DNA from: Planctomycetota bacterium
Lineage (GTDB): Bacteria > Planctomycetota > Phycisphaerae > Phycisphaerales > SM1A02
NCBI GenBank assembly: GCA_022566725.1
Contig: JADFIM010000004.1
Span: 1-32,491 of the forward strand
Direction: 5' to 3'
Length of the DNA stretch: 32,491 nucleotides
Shown here: one piece after another, positions 12,671-23,065 of the stretch
How positions within the stretch are numbered: position 1 is the first letter of the stretch
Layout of the letters: every line of letters starts with the position of its first letter
Position numbers and translations under genes: made by a program
The notes under the pieces: generated by a model
What the model saw: the letters and a program-made list of their open reading frames with translations, nothing else
What the model was told of the DNA's origin: nothing
The model's database searches: none

Positions 12671-13788
12671 GGACAACCTGATGCTAGCCGGTTCGCCTCG
12701 GCGGCCATCACCAGCGAAGCGCGGCCGTTGTGTTCCGTGACTTTCCGCTGATGGTCGGAATCGCGTATCCAGGCGACCTGATCGCGCATCATGGCCCGAA
12801 GCAGCTGGCCATATCGGTCGTACTTGACGGTTTCATGGCCTGCGGTCAGTTCCAGTCTCTGCCAAACCTCCAGGTTCTCTTGGCGAGCCCGACATCGGCG
12901 CTCCTGACCCTGGTAGAGCTGGGTGACATCGAGCCTGGCACCGGGGAACAGCTCGCACAACGTGCGGGTCTGGGCCTCGTCCGCGACGGCATGGATGCGC
13001 AGCCGCGTCGGCACCCACTCGTATAGCGTTACCTCCCCGCGCTCAAACAGAAGCCGGAACTTCTGGCGATCCATCCGCGACGGCTGATGGAAGCCATGAT
13101 ACATATTGACGAGCACATCGCGGTCGTAGCGAACGGTGCATTGGACCTGCTCCTGGAGGTCTGTACCCGGGCGAACAGCCTGCTGCGCCGCGACGACTCG
13201 TCCCGGGCCGAGCCAGCCTTCGAAGAGATCGAAGAAGTGCACGCCGTGCTCGATGAAGATGCCCCCGCTCTTTGCGCGATCCCAGAACCAATGCTCGGCC
13301 GGCAAATGCTCATCGGCGGCGTAGTTCTCGAAGTAGCCATGGAGCACCTCGCCCAGCGGCTTGGATTCGATCAACCGGTTGACCGCGTCAATCAGTGGGT
13401 TGTAGCGTTGCATGAGGTTCGCGACGATCAGCACGTTGCGCGCTTTCGCCAAGGCGATCATCGCGTCCGCTTGCTCAACGGTCAGAACCAACGGCTTTTC
13501 GCAAATGACGTGCTTGGACGCCTCCAGGGCAAGCATGGCCTGGGGATGATAGAGGAACGGCGGGGTCGAGATGTACACGAGATCGATGTCGTCTCGGGCA
13601 ACGAGCGCTTCGACATCTTCGATGTCGGGAATGTTGTAGCGCGCCGCGGCCCGCTTGGCGGCATCGCGATGCGTGCCCGCCATGCCGACGAGCTCCACGC
13701 CCGGTACCTGGACAAAGTGTTGCAGCGCAAACAGGCCAAAGCCGCCGCACCCGATGACCCCGAATCGAATGGCCTGATCGTCACCCAT
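12667..13788 (-). CDS. Gfo/Idh/MocA family oxidoreductase
   Basis: FGVIGCGGFGLFALQHF..., VISTPP-like YISTPPFLYHPQAMLALEASKHVICEKPLVLTVEQA. Confidence 0.93.
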   Translation of the reverse strand: MGDDQAIRFGVIGCGGFGLFALQHFVQVPGVELVGMAGTHRDAAKRAAARYNIPDIEDVEALVARDDIDLVYISTPPFLYHPQAMLALEASKHVICEKPLVLTVEQADAMIALAKARNVLIVANLMQRYNPLIDAVNRLIESKPLGEVLHGYFENYAADEHLPAEHWFWDRAKSGGIFIEHGVHFFDLFEGWLGPGRVVAAQQAVRPGTDLQEQVQCTVRYDRDVLVNMYHGFHQPSRMDRQKFRLLFERGEVTLYEWVPTRLRIHAVADEAQTRTLCELFPGARLDVTQLYQGQERRCRARQENLEVWQRLELTAGHETVKYDRYGQLLRAMMRDQVAWIRDSDHQRKVTEHNGRASLVMAAEANRLASGCP

Positions 13789-13811
13789 GGCGGTTCAGTG
13801 TGTCGGACCGC

Positions 13812-14414
13812 CTACGGACCCGCCGCTGCCCGCCGCGCGGAGTCGATTATCGTCTGGCTGCGAAGGCCGGCGGTCCGGCCTAGTTCCAACGCCTGGTCCC
13901 ACTGCATCCCTCGGGTGCGCGCCAGGTACGCCGCCCACATGCCGCCGACCCGATTGGACGAGCCACAATGCACCAGCACCGGCTGGTCGGTGGAAGCGAC
14001 AACCTCCGCGAACCGATCGATGATCGCGGGCGAGAAGCCATCCGACATCACCGGAATGTTGACATACTTCATCCCGAGCTCAGCCACCAGCGCCGGCTCG
14101 TCGAACGCCAGCCCCGCCACTTCCGGCTCCGTCCGGAGATTGATCACCATGGTCACGCCATCGGCGGCAGCTTTTCGAAAGGCGGCTTCACCGGGCTGAC
14201 CCGCAAAGTAGAACCGCCCCGCCCGGCTCACGTTGGAGGTGTCCGGCCAGTCGCCAACGGGCTCAGCCCGCTGCACCGTTGCCGCCTGCCCGGCCGGCTC
14301 AGCCCGCGCGATCGGCTCAGCATCGGGGCTCGTGTCAGGTTGCTGGCCGCAACTTACCAACCACATCACTCCAACCATCGCCAGGATTGTCTGCAATCTG
14401 CTCGTCCACATCAT
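13812..14414 (-). CDS. Lipoprotein with a beta-lactamase hydrolase-like / DUF442 phosphatase-type domain
   Basis: Lipobox-like ILAMVGVMWLVSC; FYFAGQPGEAAFRKAAADGVTMVINLRTEPE ... VLVHCGSSNRVGGMWAAYL (phosphatase-type Cys loop). Start set at ATG 14414 after GGAGGGAG. Confidence 0.8.
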   Translation of the reverse strand: MMWTSRLQTILAMVGVMWLVSCGQQPDTSPDAEPIARAEPAGQAATVQRAEPVGDWPDTSNVSRAGRFYFAGQPGEAAFRKAAADGVTMVINLRTEPEVAGLAFDEPALVAELGMKYVNIPVMSDGFSPAIIDRFAEVVASTDQPVLVHCGSSNRVGGMWAAYLARTRGMQWDQALELGRTAGLRSQTIIDSARRAAAGP

Positions 14415-14581
14415 GCTCCCTCCGAAAGGTCCAGCTCCAATAGAGACGGCAGTATCGCACAATCGCGGGCTTCCTGCGACCCGATCCGACTCATCACGCT
14501 TTATCCAGCGCGGTGACGACAATCCGACCCATGAGCTACTATGGCCACAACGCTTGAGACCCCTAATACGAGGAACCAGCG

Positions 14582-14971
14582 ATGCACATTGGAATACGAG
14601 TCCTGGCAGGCAGCATTCTGGGGGCCACGATCATAGCGAGCGGTGGATGTCTGGCGGTCGCCGCGGCGGCCGGCACGGGCCTTGGCGTCGCTTATGTGAA
14701 GGGCGATCTGGAAGCCGTCGTGGAGGCCACGCCGAGAAAGTTCGTCGCCGAGGCCGAGGCCGCACTGGAGAGCATGGGTATCAGGGTGCTGGCCGCCAAC
14801 GCCAACGACGTCCAAGGCACCGTCAACGCCCGCACCGCTGACGACAAGAAGATCATGATCAAGGTGCGCAAGCAGACCGAGGCCACCAGCACAGTCTCGA
14901 TCCGCGTGGGCACCTTCGGCGACGAGGCAATGAGCCAGACCATCTACGAGAAGATCAAAGCCAACCTGTAG
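14582..14971 (+). CDS. DUF3568-like small lipoprotein
   Basis: MHIGIRVLAGSILGATIIASGGCLAVAAAAGTGLGVAYVKGDLEAVVEATPRKFVAEAEAALESMGI..., Cys lipobox, AYxxGxLxA pattern. Confidence 0.75.
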   Translation: MHIGIRVLAGSILGATIIASGGCLAVAAAAGTGLGVAYVKGDLEAVVEATPRKFVAEAEAALESMGIRVLAANANDVQGTVNARTADDKKIMIKVRKQTEATSTVSIRVGTFGDEAMSQTIYEKIKANL

Positions 14972-15082
14972 GCATCCGCGACCCTTGCCCGCGCGATCCG
15001 CGTTCCTGATGACGAGCCGGGCGGCCCGCCGGGTAGTATGAGATGCACGATTGAGCGAAAGGCGCTCGCCTGGAAGGCGGCC

Positions 15083-15499
15083 ATGGCACACCAACAGCAG
15101 ATCGCCGTCGAAACCACCGGTCACCGCCACATGACCGACCTTACCGATGAGGTCACTCGCATCGTGGCTGAATCGGGGATCAACACAGGGACCGCGAACG
15201 TGTTCAACGTCGGCAGCACCGCCGCGGTGGGCATCATTGAATTCGAACCTGGTCTGCAAGGAGACCTGCCGGACATTCTCGACAAGCTGATGCCGCCCGG
15301 CCGCGACTACGGCCACGAAGAAGCCTGGCACGATGGCAATGCGCACTCACATCTTCAGGCCACGGTGCTGGGGGCATCGCTGACGGTTCCGGTCGCCGAT
15401 GGCCGGCCGGTGCTGGGCACCTGGCAGCAGATCATTCATCTTGAATGCGATACTCGCCCCCGCACCCGCAGCATCGTCGTCACCGTGCTGGGTGAGTGA
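15083..15499 (+). CDS. YjbQ/UPF0047 family protein (secondary thiamine-phosphate synthase-like)
   Basis: VGSTAAVGIIEFEPGL...LMPPGRDYGHEEAWHDGNAHSHLQATVLGASLTVPVADGRPVLGTWQQIIHLECD; start set at the internal ATG 15083. Confidence 0.9.
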   Translation: MAHQQQIAVETTGHRHMTDLTDEVTRIVAESGINTGTANVFNVGSTAAVGIIEFEPGLQGDLPDILDKLMPPGRDYGHEEAWHDGNAHSHLQATVLGASLTVPVADGRPVLGTWQQIIHLECDTRPRTRSIVVTVLGE

Positions 15500-15667
15500 C
15501 CGAGCCGCGTCTCCCCGCTGCGGAATCAGACATACGCCTCGGTGAGGAGGGTCCGTCATCATGGCCTCAGCCCTCCAATTTGTGGATTGAGAAGCCCCGT
15601 GGCGAGGCAGGATGGCGTCAAGTAGGATTCATCCGAAAGACAGCGTGTCAGCAAAGAAGAAACACAC

Positions 15668-16189
15668 GTGACTGAGCAAGTATCAGACGTCGCGGAGTGT
15701 GCTCAGATGGGCGCGCTCCTAGAAGCACATGCGAAGTTCGAGCCGTTCGTCGGCACGTTCACCGCCGAGGTCAAGATGTGGATGGGTCCCGGCGACCCGC
15801 ACGTCTCCACGGGCGTGATGATCAACACGCTGGAACTCGGCGGACGCTTCCTGCACCACAGCTACCAGGGCGACCAGGCCGACGGGCCCTTTCCGAACTT
15901 CCAGGGACGCGGCTACTGGGGATACAACACCAACGCCGGAAAGTACGAAGGCGTCTGGATCGACAGCGCTTCGACGCTCATACAGACCGAGACCGGTGAT
16001 GTCGATGCGTCTGGAAAAGTGTGGACGATGATCGGCCAGGTGACCAACCCGCAGACCGGCCAACCGATGCAGAAGCGGTCGGTCATTACGCTGCAAGACT
16101 CCGATCACCACCGCGTGGAAATGTTCTTCCAGGGCCCCGACGGCAACGAGTTCAAGGCGATGGAGATCAGCTACACGCGCAGGGGCTGA
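15668..16189 (+). CDS. DUF1579 family protein
   Basis: FEPFVGTFTAEVKMWMGPGDPHVSTGVMINTLELGGRFL...GYWGYNTNAGKYEGVWIDSAST...FKAMEISYTRRG. Confidence 0.88.
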   Translation: MTEQVSDVAECAQMGALLEAHAKFEPFVGTFTAEVKMWMGPGDPHVSTGVMINTLELGGRFLHHSYQGDQADGPFPNFQGRGYWGYNTNAGKYEGVWIDSASTLIQTETGDVDASGKVWTMIGQVTNPQTGQPMQKRSVITLQDSDHHRVEMFFQGPDGNEFKAMEISYTRRG

Positions 16190-16264
16190 GGGGGAGGGCA
16201 CTACAGATTGCCGGGCCGCCGGCCTTGTTTGCGCGCGCAGACCGGACCGTTGGCCCTCCTATGA

Positions 16265-17620
16265 GTGGACACCATCGACCGCAATCTCCTCGACGCCTGG
16301 CGCCGAATCGGCGACGAGGTCCGTCGCGACCGTGTCGAAGTCCTGCGCCGCTCCTACCGGCGTCTCACACCGACGCTCACCCGCCCCCCGCGGGCGTGGT
16401 GCCTCTGCCTGCGCGCCTGTGACACGCGCATCTCACCTGTGACGTGCGCGATCGAGCTCGACCCCAACGTCGAGCTACCCATCAACGACAGCCTTGAGTC
16501 CGCCCTCGCTCACGGTGCGCCACACACCGTCGCCCTCACCGGTGCAGTCATCCACCGGCTGTGCATACCCGTTTCCCTCCCCTGGCCGGGCATGGACTGG
16601 ACGATCGCCGCCCAACGTCTCGGCCGGCACGAGGAAACATTGCGCCGTTGGATCAAGCTTGGCATCCTGCGCGCGCGATACGACAACGCCGTGTCACACG
16701 GCAAGCGCGGCAAACCCGTCCCCATCGTCTGGTCGCCCTCACCTCTGGATCCGAACACGAACCACGGCCAGCCCCCCGATCCCGTCTGGGGGACGCTCTG
16801 GCAGACGCTCTGGAAGCGCCTCCCCGAGGATTACCAACTCATCGTCCGCAGGGAAGCTCGATTCGTCCACTACCGTGGCGAGCCGCGGCAGCGCGGCTGG
16901 CAATTCGTCTGCCCCGGCCGCCTCCGGTCGCCGCCGATTTCCGCGTCCATGCCGCGGGCTTCTCGCGAGCTCCCCGACGCTGCCTTGGAGCGCATCGCGT
17001 GCAACCGGCGCGTCAAGCGCCTCTACGCCCCGCAATCGACCTGGACCATCGCCCAGCAGCTTGGGGATGATCGCGGGTTCGCAATCTCCCCGCTCCCGCC
17101 CGGAGACGGAGCCCAGGGCAGCGAGGCGGATGACGGCGGACTTTGCCTCGCGGGCGCCTGGCATCCCGGGCAAAGCGATCCGATCAAAGCCATGGGCCCG
17201 CGGTCATTTGCCTGCCATCACTGCTGGCGCGTGCAGTTCACGAGTCTGCTCAATCACGTTGGTTGGAACGCGTTCGTCACCCACGTCTCCGGCGGTCTGC
17301 TATATGGCCACGAGGTCCAGCGCCCACTCGATGAAGCGCCCAAGCGCCGCAAGAAGCGCTTCGTGCCGCACCCGCGCCCGGCCCCGCGTCGCCGCGAGGT
17401 CTCCCTCGGACTGCTCCAAGGCCTGACCTACCAGCAGATCGCCGACCGCATGGGCATCACCTATAGCACCGTCCACGCCCACGTCAAGAAGATCTACAAA
17501 CAGCACGCCGTCCACAGCCGCGAGGAGTTGATCACATGTCTGGGCAAGCAGCGCGCCTCCCCTTCGATGGCGCCGACGGCGACAAGCTCAAGGCCGTGTA
17601 GATCGACTACACGCGGATGA
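16265..17620 (+). CDS. HTH / zinc-ribbon-like / C-terminal LuxR-type HTH protein
   Basis: WTIAAQRLGRHEETLRRWIKLGILRARY (helix-turn-helix), IACNRRVKRLYAP...FACHHCWRVQFTS (zinc-ribbon-like), QGLTYQQIADRMGITYSTVHAHVKKIYKQHAVHSREEL (LuxR/GerE HTH). Confidence 0.75.
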   Translation: MDTIDRNLLDAWRRIGDEVRRDRVEVLRRSYRRLTPTLTRPPRAWCLCLRACDTRISPVTCAIELDPNVELPINDSLESALAHGAPHTVALTGAVIHRLCIPVSLPWPGMDWTIAAQRLGRHEETLRRWIKLGILRARYDNAVSHGKRGKPVPIVWSPSPLDPNTNHGQPPDPVWGTLWQTLWKRLPEDYQLIVRREARFVHYRGEPRQRGWQFVCPGRLRSPPISASMPRASRELPDAALERIACNRRVKRLYAPQSTWTIAQQLGDDRGFAISPLPPGDGAQGSEADDGGLCLAGAWHPGQSDPIKAMGPRSFACHHCWRVQFTSLLNHVGWNAFVTHVSGGLLYGHEVQRPLDEAPKRRKKRFVPHPRPAPRRREVSLGLLQGLTYQQIADRMGITYSTVHAHVKKIYKQHAVHSREELITCLGKQRASPSMAPTATSSRPCRSTTRG

Positions 17621-17622
17621 GT
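17564..17622 (+). pseudogene. Decayed 3' tail of a second DUF1579-type gene
   Basis: Reads FDGADGDKLKAV*IDYTRM, against FQGPDGNEFKAMEISYTRR of the DUF1579 gene at 15668-16189; overlaps the HTH ORF C-terminus in another frame. Confidence 0.6.
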
Positions 17623-17640
17623 TCACTGGAGGGCGGGCCG

Positions 17641-17676
17641 CCGGGGGTGCGACACATTCGTCAGGCGCACTCCCGG
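17641..17676. repeat. Inverted repeat (hairpin)
   Basis: ccgggggtgcg-(14 nt)-cgcactcccgg, 10 of 11 stem pairs. Confidence 0.75.
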
Positions 17677-17802
17677 GGGCCGGATGGCCGGGTCCGTCCT
17701 CAACTCCACGCGGCAGCCGGATGACTCCCCATCCCTTCCAGGCAGGGGGTTTGGGGGTGGGTCCAGAGCAGCACATGTGGTGGCCAATCACCCCTCACCA
17801 TC

Positions 17803-17826
17803 CCCTCTCCCGGCAAGGGGAGAGGG
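17803..17826. repeat. Inverted repeat in convergent intergenic region
   Basis: ccctctccc-ggcaag-gggagaggg, 9-bp perfect stem. Confidence 0.85.
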
Positions 17827-17840
17827 TTCTGAAACAGTCA

Positions 17841-18701
17841 CTACGCCTTGGCGCTTACGACTATGGTTGTCTCTCGATCAACCTCAAACTTCTTAAACGA
17901 TTCGTTGGTGAAGGTCATTTTCGTCTCCATGAAACGCATGAACGCAGGTCCTAACGGCTTGTCCCAAGCGGCTAGATAGAAATGAAACGACTCTTCTAAG
18001 ACAACTTGGCGCTTCTGCCAATCCTGCGAGAATCGACTCGGCAGAGATAAACAGGGAAGCACTCGCATGAATGCCCAAGCGATGCAAACGGCAGTGTGGG
18101 TAAATCTGCTTGCCTTCAACTCATCGAACGTCGGCGCAATCGATGGCATTCGCTGGTCGGCCATCATCTCACCAATGAAGTCGATGATCGTCGAGGACGC
18201 TTTATGCACATGGGCGTGCAACACGTTAAACATCAATTCCAGTTCATCTTGATCGTCTTTCGACATTCCGCTTTCCTTACCACGCATCTTCCTCTTTATC
18301 GTTCCGTCGGTGTCACGCTGAACGTCGCGCTCTACTTTGAGTCGCTCTGCTTCCGAGGCTCGCGTGAAGTCCAGTTTGTGCGACGCGTCCAATAGTGCGT
18401 CAAACTTGATGTAGCCATGAGCTACCGCCCCTAGATACAACAGAGACTCGAAGACCGACCGGAGATTTGATGCTGCATCGTTGTAGTAGCCGCTATAGAA
18501 CTCGTTGAGAGCCACTCGCAATCGGCGCCAGGCGGCTCCGACAAACGCAACACCAAAGACATTTAGTATGTGTCCATGCCGCTGGGCCTCGTCATAGGTC
18601 TGCAGCGCGAAATCTTGAGTTGCATCCAACAGAGTCATGAATCCGCTGAAGTCTTTAACACTCCTTATCCCTGTGCAGTTTCTCCGCATGTGCGATTGCA
18701 C
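17841..18701 (-). CDS. Hypothetical alpha-helical protein, loosely DUF5677/HEPN-like; companion of the TIR gene
   Basis: 286-aa ORF; LNEFYSGYYNDAASNLRSVFESLLYLGAV and FNVLHAHVHKASSTIIDFI resemble the paired motifs of DUF5677-like proteins. The true start may be ATG 18638. Confidence 0.6.
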   Translation of the reverse strand: MQSHMRRNCTGIRSVKDFSGFMTLLDATQDFALQTYDEAQRHGHILNVFGVAFVGAAWRRLRVALNEFYSGYYNDAASNLRSVFESLLYLGAVAHGYIKFDALLDASHKLDFTRASEAERLKVERDVQRDTDGTIKRKMRGKESGMSKDDQDELELMFNVLHAHVHKASSTIIDFIGEMMADQRMPSIAPTFDELKASRFTHTAVCIAWAFMRVLPCLSLPSRFSQDWQKRQVVLEESFHFYLAAWDKPLGPAFMRFMETKMTFTNESFKKFEVDRETTIVVSAKA

Positions 18702-18792
18702 ACACCCGCTCTCCTACGATGCCTGATGGGCCTTTGAACGCCTCAGATAACTTGTGTTGCCACTGTCTGATTTCGTCGTCTCGATCAGTCAT
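18655..18792 (-). CDS. Small ORF upstream of and overlapping the helical protein ORF
   Basis: 45 aa from ATG at 18792: MTDRDDEIRQWQHKLSEAFKGPSGIVGERVCAIAHAEKLHRDKEC; same strand as neighbours. Confidence 0.4.
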   Translation of the reverse strand: MTDRDDEIRQWQHKLSEAFKGPSGIVGERVCAIAHAEKLHRDKEC

Positions 18793-18974
18793 GAAACACC
18801 TATGGTACCGTCGCAATTAGGACGAGCGGGAAAGGAACGTCGCCACATACCCATTCACATCGCATCGTCTTCACATGTTCCTCATCCAGAATCATCTGGA
18901 CGGTCAGTAGGTTTATGACACGGCCGATGCGCTTGTGGAGCCCGAAGCACTCCTGGTGAGAGGTGAAGAACCTT

Positions 18975-19961
18975 TCAACCGTCGATTAGCGCTCGCTTCA
19001 GTCTTGGCGAGACCTTCCAAATCGTGTATCCGCCGAAATACCGACTTATTTCAACAAAGCCCTGCTCCTCCAGAACGCGAAGCAGATGGTCGCGTAACCG
19101 TTCGGGGGCGTCGAGTACTTCAAGATCTGCTTTGGTGTGCCACTTCTCGTTTACCAGGCCGGAAACAAGTCGCGTCAGAAGGCTGTCGTAATTCGGCCAC
19201 TTCGCCTTCGCGTACGCATCGAAGGCGTGTGTTGCAATACGGAGATGAGTGATGCCAAACTCCTTATAGGTACCCCCGCTCGCCCCTGACAACTCAACGT
19301 AGCCTTCGTCGTCCAGGATGTTAAGAGAATCACCCAATGCTTCGTCTGTAATGCCAGTGGCGGACACGGCATCGAGACAAGACAAGCCGACCACGAGCAC
19401 GTCCTCGGCTCGCACGCTCTCATCGCACAGGGTCTCCAGAACCATGAGGTCAACTTTGTCTAGAGAAGGAATGTCTAAGAGTGGGTGGATATCTGCATAG
19501 CCGGGGGAGGCACCAATCGGCGGCTTGTCCGTAACTCCGAAGATTGAGGAGAGGATGCGCTGCAACTCCTCTGAGTAGTCAGTCAGGTTTGTGATACGCT
19601 GCCAGAGTGTGGACTGCAGACACTCCGGGACGGCGCAATCATCTAGAACAACAGGGATCAACCTACACTTGCCTGAAACTCGCTTGACAAATCCCGCGTT
19701 GAGCTCCTCGCGTACCCATGGCTTGGTAACGCTCACTTTCGAGAGGACAACGATCAGCGCGGTAGCGTTCTTGATCCCTTCTTCGAATATCTTGTCGACG
19801 AGACGATCGCCAGGCATCATCTCCCATTTATCCAGCCAAGCGTCGACCCCGTTGTCACGCAGCTTCTTTGCCAACTCAACGACAAAGCGATCTTTGTCTT
19901 CGCTGGCATGCGAAATAAACACTCGGGGTGGTGATGAAGCCTGCGGCATTTCTGTCCCCAA
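18975..19961 (-). CDS. TIR-domain protein with C-terminal winged-helix-like region
   Basis: RVFISHASEDKDRFVVELAKKLRDNGVDAWLDKWEMMPGDRLVDKIFEEGIKNATALIVVLSKVSVTKPWVREELNAGF is TIR_2-like with the conserved Glu after S..W; start could be TTG 19961 or ATG 19949. Confidence 0.9.
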   Translation of the reverse strand: MGTEMPQASSPPRVFISHASEDKDRFVVELAKKLRDNGVDAWLDKWEMMPGDRLVDKIFEEGIKNATALIVVLSKVSVTKPWVREELNAGFVKRVSGKCRLIPVVLDDCAVPECLQSTLWQRITNLTDYSEELQRILSSIFGVTDKPPIGASPGYADIHPLLDIPSLDKVDLMVLETLCDESVRAEDVLVVGLSCLDAVSATGITDEALGDSLNILDDEGYVELSGASGGTYKEFGITHLRIATHAFDAYAKAKWPNYDSLLTRLVSGLVNEKWHTKADLEVLDAPERLRDHLLRVLEEQGFVEISRYFGGYTIWKVSPRLKRALIDG

Positions 19962-20127
19962 ACTGCGTGGACGGCCAGTCTAGCTAAGATCGCAGCGGGT
20001 TTCACCCTCTTTGTGCCCCGGACAGTGAGGAAGGGGGGAAGGAACGGGGACGGGCGTCTTCTTCGGGGTGCGTGCGCCGCGTCATCACGCCATCATCTGT
20101 TCTTCCAGGGCTTCGAGGCACGGTCGG

Positions 20128-20172
20128 CGGCCTGGCCGGCGCTGGGTACCTGGCAGTAGACGATCCACCAAA
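20128..20172 (+). pseudogene. Possible decayed fragment of a YjbQ-type gene
   Basis: Reads PALGTWQ*TIHQK against PVLGTWQQIIHLE of YjbQ (about 15405-15450); several differences are at third codon positions. Confidence 0.4.
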
Positions 20173-20183
20173 AGCAGTTCTAC

Positions 20184-20843
20184 TCAAGCTGTAGCGTTTG
20201 CGACGGGGCGGCTCTGGGTCGTCCCGGTGCGCTGTGGGGTGATGTAGTCGAACACGTTCTCGAAGTATCGTTCATCCCACACCCATTTCACGCTCCCGCC
20301 CTTGGCCCACCACGGACGTCGAGGGGAATCGGATCCGAGCCGCCCGCTGTGCGGGCGGTCCGCCGACACAGTCGGCGGCTCCGAAGCGAACCGCTTCGTC
20401 AACGCTTGTCCCAACCAGGTCTTCAACCATCGCCGCACCGCTTGGCCGTCGCGATCCGTGGTCAACAGCACGTGGACGTGATCAGTTTGAGCGGCGAAGG
20501 CGTGCAGTTGCCATCCACCGCGCTCACAGACTCCTCGGATCGCATCCTCAGCGAAGCGACGCTGCTGCATGGTGAGCGTCACCGGCGGGAATCTGAGATG
20601 TGATCGCTCAATGCGCTGCCAGTCTTCGTTCTTCCCGATGATCGGATCACCCGGCTTGTTCATCGAGCGATCGACCGTCCCCCGCGGATCGCCATGCAAG
20701 CGTGTGCCGTGGGTTCCGATGGTAATGTGATACGCCAGCGGTCTGTCCGGCATGCGCGCAGTGTAACGCACAGTCATCAGAGCCACGGCGTGTCGCCGCC
20801 CGAATGCGATCAAAGAGTTCCACGATCCGGACTCCTCGCTCAA
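20184..20843 (-). CDS. REP-associated tyrosine transposase (Y1/HUH, RAYT-like)
   Basis: LAYHITIGTHGTRLHGD..., HUH-type DHVHVLL, WWAKGGSVKWVWDERYFENVFDYI with candidate catalytic Tyr. Confidence 0.88.
   Translation of the reverse strand: MSEESGSWNSLIAFGRRHAVALMTVRYTARMPDRPLAYHITIGTHGTRLHGDPRGTVDRSMNKPGDPIIGKNEDWQRIERSHLRFPPVTLTMQQRRFAEDAIRGVCERGGWQLHAFAAQTDHVHVLLTTDRDGQAVRRWLKTWLGQALTKRFASEPPTVSADRPHSGRLGSDSPRRPWWAKGGSVKWVWDERYFENVFDYITPQRTGTTQSRPVANATA
20337..20381. repeat. Double-hairpin palindromic element inside the RAYT coding sequence
   Basis: ccgcccgc-tgt-gcgggcgg (20340-20358) and ccgccgac-aca-gtcggcgg (20360-20378), bounded by gagccgcc...ggcggctc. Confidence 0.9.
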
Positions 20844-20887
20844 ATCACCGAATCATGCGTCGGGACGTTGTGCGCGGGGGCGGTCTT
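20836..20887. repeat. Copy 1 of a 52-bp imperfect direct repeat (thiC 3' tail)
   Basis: 48 of 52 positions match 21199-21250; minus strand encodes [15 protein letters not shown]-stop. Confidence 0.9.
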
Positions 20888-20917
20888 GAGCGGCGCGAAC
20901 TTCAGGGGCTTCGACGG

Positions 20918-21142
20918 CTACGCCGAGCGGCGGACGTACACCTGGCCAGCTTTGGCAAGTTCATCAACCTCACCGGCTTCTGCCATTCGATGAAGCTTGT
21001 CGAGCCACCGCACGGTGTGCGGTTCGAGACATGGCTCGCTGGGATCACTGTCAGGTATCACCGCATCCACTTCGACGCGGACGACGCAGGGGCCGCCATG
21101 TATCCAACGGGAAACCTTGATCCGCTTACCTTTGATTCTCAT
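20918..21142 (-). CDS. Small hypothetical protein
   Basis: 74 aa, ATG start: MRIKGKRIKVSRWIHGGPCVVRVEVDAVIPDSDPSEPCLEPHTVRWLDKLHRMAEAGEVDELAKAGQVYVRRSA; protein-like composition, lies between the two direct repeats. Confidence 0.65.
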   Translation of the reverse strand: MRIKGKRIKVSRWIHGGPCVVRVEVDAVIPDSDPSEPCLEPHTVRWLDKLHRMAEAGEVDELAKAGQVYVRRSA

Positions 21143-21198
21143 CGCTCACTCATCGAAAAAGTGCACTGTTACAAGCTTAGCGACCTTATCCGGCCTCT

Positions 21199-21250
21199 TC
21201 GCTCAGATCACCGAATCATGCGTGGGGACGTTGTGGGCGGGGGCGGTATT
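21199..21250. repeat. Copy 2 of the 52-bp direct repeat (native 3' end of thiC)
   Basis: Offset 363 bp from copy 1; 4 mismatches. Confidence 0.9.
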
Positions 21251-23065
21251 CAGTTTCACGATCTCATTTCGAGTCTTGCGTTGCTGGATTTGCTTTGCAT
21301 CGTCGGCGTCTGCGTCGTCGCTGTGGCAGGCGGGTCTGACACTCGCCTTCGAGCCTTCGCCGTTCGACCCCCCGGCAGAGCCGGGGGCTACGGGGCTCTT
21401 GGTGGCGAGATTGTGGATCTGCTGCGGCGAAAGCACGCCGCGCTGTTTGAGAATCTCCTGCTGCTCGGCAGTCAGCGCCTCGGTGCGCTGGGGCTTCTCC
21501 CAGGCGTACTCCTCGGCTTTCCCGCTCATGAACTCCTCGATCTCCTTACTGATGCGCACGCTGCACCAGTCGTGGCCACACATCGCGCAGAAGTCGGTGT
21601 CCACATCCAGGTCTTCATCGTGCAGCGCTCGTGCCGTATCGGGATCGAAGGAGAGTTCGAAATGCTTCTTCCAGTTCAATGCCGCGCGAGCCTTGGTGAG
21701 CTCATCATCCCAATCGCGAGCCCCCGGAATGCCCAAGGCAACGTCCGCAGCGTGCGCGGCGATCTTGTAGGCGATACAGCCTTGCTTCACGTCATCCTTC
21801 TTGGGCAGACCGAGATGCTCCTTAGGCGTGACATAACACAGCATCGCCGCCCCGTGATAGGCCGCTGCGGTCGCTCCGATGCAGCTCGTAATATGGTCAT
21901 AGCCAGGGAACACGTCGGTGACGAGCGGGCCGAGTACGTAGAACGGCGCGCCGTGGCAGAGGCGACGCTCGAGCTTCATGTTGTATTCGATCTGATCGAA
22001 CGGCACGTGGCCGGGCCCTTCGACCATGACCTGCACCCCGTGGGCCCAGGCGCGCTCGGTGAGCTCGCCGATGGTCTCAAGCTCAGCCAGCTGCGCATCG
22101 TCCGTGGCGTCGCCCAGTCCGCCGGGACGCAACCCATCTCCAATCGAAAATGAAACGTCGTAGCGGCGCATGATCCCGCATATCTCGTCCCACAGCTCGT
22201 ACATCGGGTTCTGTTGATTCTGGTGCAGCATCCACTTGGCCAGCAACGCCCCCCCGCGGGAGACGATGCCGATGAGCCGACCGCGGACGTACTTGAGATG
22301 CTCGCGCAACACTCCGGCATGAATCGTGAAGTAATCAACGCCCTGGGCGGCCTGCTTCTCGAGTTCGGCCAGGATGATCTCGTGGGTGAGATCTTCGAGA
22401 CGGCGGCCGATGATCATCGAATACAGCGGCACGGTGCCGATGGGGACGGTCGCGTGGCGGATGATCGTCTCGCGGCACTCATCGAGATCGCCCCCGGTGG
22501 ACAAATCCATCACGGTGTCCGCGCCCCAACGCTGGGCCCAGTGAAGCTTCTCAAGCTCCTCTGCGGTGCCGGAGGAGATAGGCGAAGCGCCCATGTTGGC
22601 GTTGATCTTGGTGCGTGAGGCCCGGCCGATGCACATGGGATCGAGGTGGTATTGGAGATGCACCGTGTTGGCGGGGATGATCATGCGGCCGGCGGCGACC
22701 TCGTCACGCACCTGCTGGGGCGTCAGATGCCCTTCGCGGTGGGCGACGCGTTTCATTTGCGGGGTGATGATGCCCAGGCGGGCGTGTTCGAGCTGAGTGA
22801 CCGGGGCAGGCACCGAGGCATCAAGGCATCGAGGCATCGAGGCGGCGCGGTCGAGACGGGTGCCGGTCGGCAGGAAATCCCACGCGGTATGCGGCGAGGG
22901 CTCCGGCATGCCGGGGGTGTCCGGCGAAGAGAACATCAGCGGCCCGCCGATGTCCGCCGAATTGGCGAAGCAGCCGGGTGTCGTACCCTGGCTCTTGGAT
23001 GATGGATCCAACGCGCCACGATATGGACGCTGGAATCGGTCGGTGGTGGTCTTGGGCTGAATCAT
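21203..23065 (-). CDS. thiC: Phosphomethylpyrimidine synthase ThiC
   Basis: [13 protein letters not shown]...[65 protein letters not shown] (CxxCxxxxC cluster motif). Start ATG 23065 after GGAGG; the ORF-track start at 23125 lies inside the riboswitch. Confidence 0.97.
21369..21387. repeat. Palindrome inside the thiC 3' coding region
   Basis: cccccggc-aga-gccggggg, in frame ([12 protein letters not shown]). Confidence 0.85.

Follow-up and report, generated by a model that had tools for sequence, protein, structure and literature searches.

A probable solo TIR defence gene with winged-helix-like lobes in a variable block of a Planctomycetota genome, and its unrelated helical neighbour

Background

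The closest known counterparts of the gene considered here include the bacterial TIR NADases AbTir, BtTir, PdTIR and TcpB, all of the TIR_2 type, solved as TIR domains of proteins with other partner regions. In the Thoeris system a TIR protein, ThsB, is paired with ThsA. Two further systems, bSEFIR and PDC-S66, are represented in the PADLOC models. Helical proteins encoded beside TIR genes call to mind the HEPN domains, most of which keep an Rx4-6H motif (PMC3710099).

The locus described here lies on a Planctomycetota contig, in a stretch of 32,491 nucleotides (the window, to which all unlabelled coordinates refer). An earlier note, made from the sequence alone, had proposed that a TIR gene and a helical protein in a lower-GC island could together form an undescribed defence or toxin-antitoxin system.

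The variable block and its flanks

Three ORFs follow one another on the minus strand: the TIR gene (18975-19961, 328 aa, identified by ORF call and Pfam TIR_2), a 45-codon ORF (18658-18792) and a helical ORF of 286 aa from a rare family (17841-18701). These are the same-strand objects that the earlier note had listed, and the ORF calls agree with it. The TIR gene and the 286-aa ORF are separated by 273 bp, and the small stray ORF between them runs in a different frame into the 286-aa ORF at its 5' end. Relatives of the 45-codon ORF were not found in searches that included the fetched loci of the TIR relatives. The idea that it encodes the N-terminal part of the helical protein, split off by a frameshift, is not supported, since its match to the N-termini of the helical family is not significant (142 of 1000 shuffles match equally well). 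The lower-GC island is real by both measures of composition, as GC dips to 0.52-0.56 across 17.5-20 kb versus 0.60-0.67 (about 0.63) around it, and third-codon-position GC is 0.61-0.62 in the genes of the island versus 0.73-0.82 in their neighbours.

The three ORFs lie inside a 2.55-kb variable block (17582-20133) that was delimited by blastn against two congeners, G001 and G003, and by alignment of the junction. G001 aligns to 13619-17581 and then straight to 20134-20799; it lacks 17582-20133, and the block edges adjoin there, so that the ORFs form one presence/absence unit in this comparison. The difference from G003 is larger by blastn, with 15507-21394 either missing there or replaced. Decayed gene tails lie at both edges. 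The left one (17560-17620) looks, by eye, like the terminal part of the gene at 15668-16189, and the right one (20134-20190) is similar to that of the UPF0047 gene at 15038-15499. Inside the block, its left edge carries on this decayed copy of the tail of 15668-16189, so that the block may have been lost from G001 just as well as gained here. The common strand and low GC of the TIR and helical genes can be explained without a functional tie, since both belong to this one block.

On the left side of the block is a dispersed intergenic repeat (17724-17843) with the palindrome CCCCTCTCCCGGCAAGGGGAGAGGG, in the arrangement CCCTCTCC...GGGGAGAGGG, and seven other partial copies at 79-95% are present in the same genome. 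The repeat is perhaps REP-like and tied to the RAYT-like gene at 20184-20843, which has a sub-threshold Pfam match to Y1_Tnp (E=6e-4). The flanks named in the earlier note (a HTH gene, decayed tails and a RAYT transposase) were all found, the last with the sub-threshold match just given. The HTH gene (16265-17599) encodes 445 aa, and the C-terminal part of its product is a LuxR/sigma-like HTH. It is present in G001 and has no alignment in G003, and is a further variable gene at this site beside thiC.

The TIR gene and its family

The TIR gene probably starts at an ATG four codons in, or else at the TTG at 19961. Its product matches TIR_2 (PF13676) over aa 14-137 with E=2.9e-28 and 99.2 bits against a curated cut-off of 28, and the TIR domain is followed by a linker and two winged-helix-like lobes (about aa 165-328). 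The Glu region 'KVSVTKPWVREEL', which had drawn attention to the gene in the first place, is present, and the catalytic-position residue E86 is invariant in 47 of 47 aligned relatives, as are D22, W42, D44, S74, S77, W82 and V83. E86 occupies the W-x3-E position of catalytic TIRs such as SARM1 and AbTir, here W82-x3-E. In this conserved Glu the protein fits the catalytic TIR NADase type, with NAD+ cleavage as its predicted activity.

The decayed gene tails at the block edges, and a helical ORF without the N-terminal region of its relatives, are what decaying cargo that no longer works in this strain might look like. The TIR frame, however, is complete and full length and has kept every invariant residue, and it is very unlikely that the locus is in decay.

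An AlphaFold model of the TIR protein, built from the family alignment of 47 sequences, has a pLDDT of 88. Its TIR part matches AbTir 8g83 (Foldseek 2.7e-6, TMt 0.73; VIA Z 12.6, 126 aligned, 3.0 A) as well as BtTir, PdTIR, SPARTA TIRs and SEFIR structures (VIA Z 12-14, 116-134 residues). TIR structures fill the list of structure matches, which would mask any known fold that matches the C-terminal lobes. After about aa 165 the model has two lobes, each with helices and then a short beta hairpin, and the C-terminal region gives weak profile matches to TrmB in 10 of the 47 members and to Rrf2, HTH_34 and others in a few. The lobes and these matches together suggest tandem winged helices, which supports the winged-helix-like C-terminus that had been seen in the letters. 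The same lobes and similarities would suit a transcriptional or DNA-linked regulator that has no role in phage defence. Such a function is improbable, since the catalytic Glu and the TIR core are invariant across very divergent members and the distribution of the family is patchy and defence-rich.

A scan of species genomes found about 50 full-length TIR-winged-helix relatives across many phyla, with hosts in Pseudomonadota, Chlorobiota, Planctomycetota, Acidobacteriota, Cloacimonadota, archaea and others. Family members are at 28-46% identity. Full-length relatives are also on a Rhodoferax plasmid (46% identity) and a viral contig (41%), and in two genomes of the same phylum. Clustering of the neighbouring ORFs at about 50 loci revealed no general conserved partner; the genes beside the TIR gene vary from locus to locus, which argues that it has no obligate partner. 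The recurring neighbours are patchy: a DUF499 gene lies upstream at 6 loci, type I restriction-modification genes are present at 3-5, and ThsA/ThsB at 3 (L042, L051 and L071, where the pair adjoins the TIR gene). Pfam matches in the neighbours include 7 ThsB_TIR, 3 ThsA_Macro, 4 N6_Mtase, restriction enzymes, DUF499 and one SMODS. In a PADLOC scan 348 models matched among 92 neighbour proteins versus 13 among 88 control proteins, which were picked arbitrarily from regions close to contig starts in those genomes. These are counts of redundant models and serve as a contrast, not as a number of genes.

In loci L056, L059, L060, L067 and L068 the gene for a DUF499-type ATPase overlaps the start of the TIR-winged-helix gene by 4 bases, and this overlap, with DUF499 upstream, is a recurring operon placement in several proteobacteria. 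A Desulfuromonadaceae MAG (L047, 4481-9265) has a row of different TIR or TIR-like genes that includes a TIR-winged-helix gene and also a gene that looks caspase-like.

The conserved catalytic Glu and the repeated occurrence of relatives in defence neighbourhoods support well a defence role for the TIR gene, and this part of the earlier proposal holds up. The gene probably encodes a solo anti-phage effector, with an N-terminal catalytic TIR domain and tandem winged-helix-like lobes. The lobes would sense infection, as nucleic acid or as a phage protein, and the TIR domains would then assemble. Through Glu86, NAD+ would be hydrolysed or made into a cADPR-type signal, and its consumption would stop phage growth by abortive infection. 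More tentatively, the family may represent an undescribed single-protein system, in which the tandem winged-helix lobes would sense phage nucleic acid or protein directly and activate the TIR NADase without a separate sensor or effector. Against a solo role, some relatives may serve another system, given the Thoeris genes beside three of the loci.

A literature search found no TIR-winged-helix defence protein under those words, and one described under another name is possible. We know of no activity that has been demonstrated for any member of the family. The family seems to be unnamed in the libraries searched, yet of the known kind of TIR NADase-type immunity. It spans many phyla and defence neighbourhoods, and no model in PADLOC, NCBIfam or Pfam matches the full length of the protein, the matches being confined to the TIR part. 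Having sensor and enzyme in one chain would make the family simple to test. Proteins that now bear only the label 'TIR domain-containing' could be given a function by one assay of a member in culture, such as those of Marinomonas or Comamonas.

The helical neighbour

Translation of the 286-aa ORF may begin either at the GTG at 18701 or at one of the downstream ATGs. In alignment its relatives extend about 45-105 residues further at the N-terminus, and the ORF is possibly 5'-truncated. Searches of Pfam, PADLOC and the PDB sequences gave no match to the protein, and NCBIfam gave none that is meaningful. Its family is very rare and is found beside unrelated genes, with one relative on a Paraburkholderia plasmid at 23%, a fragment in genome G424, a weak relative in genome G783 and another in a Krumholzibacteriia genome (E=4.7e-22). 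The Krumholzibacteriia relative (L122, 1444-2394) adjoins a tyrosine recombinase and also a terminase-like ORF, the latter called by eye and without a Pfam match; the family may thus be carried by prophage-like elements. The helical protein had no matches among the phages and viral contigs searched. The G783 relative (L124) matches DUF5677 below the cut-off (E=0.009), and DUF5677 and the helical protein have in common a SGYxxxAxxLLRxxxE-like helix. The 286-aa protein may be distantly DUF5677-like, by a link that runs via L124 and not through a Pfam match of its own.

The description of this protein as helical fits its model, which is all-helical, but that model is a single-sequence one of low confidence (pLDDT 47). 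Foldseek of the model returned generic helical bundles and receptors only, all with E>0.1 and none of them meaningful. The Rx4-6H motif is absent from the 286-aa protein and from L006, its closest full-length relative, and no R..H pair with this spacing is conserved in the family alignment. Loss of the motif is known in some HEPN families. With neither the motif nor a Pfam match, the earlier suggestion of a HEPN protein is not supported.

The proposed pairing with the TIR gene did not survive the co-occurrence check. Searching about 50 TIR loci (flanks up to 6 kb) by tblastn with the helical protein and its Paraburkholderia relative gave no helical relative at E up to 1, and a profile search found helical relatives absent from 48 of 49 whole genomes with the TIR gene. 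In the sole exception the relative is on a 25.8-kb contig, beside an integrase, and the TIR gene is on a separate 72.9-kb contig. The Paraburkholderia relative has no TIR gene nearby. In everything searched, only this genome has the combination. A defence or toxin-antitoxin system of two genes would agree with the shared strand, the similar low GC and codon-position bias, and the joint presence or absence between two congeners; set against these are the missing co-occurrence and the spacing of the genes with a stray ORF between them, which make such a system highly improbable. The pairing is not worth further pursuit. Judging from its distribution, the 286-aa protein almost certainly stands beside the TIR gene by chance and is not a partner, and it would have arrived, or stayed, in the same variable block. 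The two proteins could interact in this species only, being encoded on one strand of one 2.55-kb block.

Comparison with known systems

The best PADLOC matches of the TIR protein are to bSEFIR and PDC-S66, and all 47 members match. The window protein covers only the TIR/SEFIR region of these profiles, positions 33-199 of 412 in bSEFIR and 151-240 of 282 in PDC-S66. Neither identity is supported, as neither profile is matched over its full length.

The likeness to Thoeris extends to the TIR domain and to the ThsA/ThsB pairs that adjoin three relatives. The TIR protein might on this basis be an extra ThsB-like infection sensor whose signal reaches an effector of Thoeris or a similar system encoded at another place in the genome, and ThsB_TIR does match 47 of 47 members above chance. 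The TIR_2 match is far stronger than the ThsB_TIR match, however, and the family is mostly solo, with ThsA_Macro in only 3 proteins among the scanned neighbours and no ThsA gene near the TIR gene at most of the loci. In the window no ThsA-like gene was recognised beside the TIR gene, and the adjoining 286-aa protein has no PADLOC match. A ThsB-like sensor is thus unlikely, and a solo effector remains the preferred reading.

A further close comparison is with AbTir, BtTir, PdTIR and TcpB. The protein has in common with them the TIR fold and the W-x3-E position, at about 26-32% TIR-domain identity. It differs from them in its architecture, in which an N-terminal TIR domain is followed by winged-helix-like lobes.
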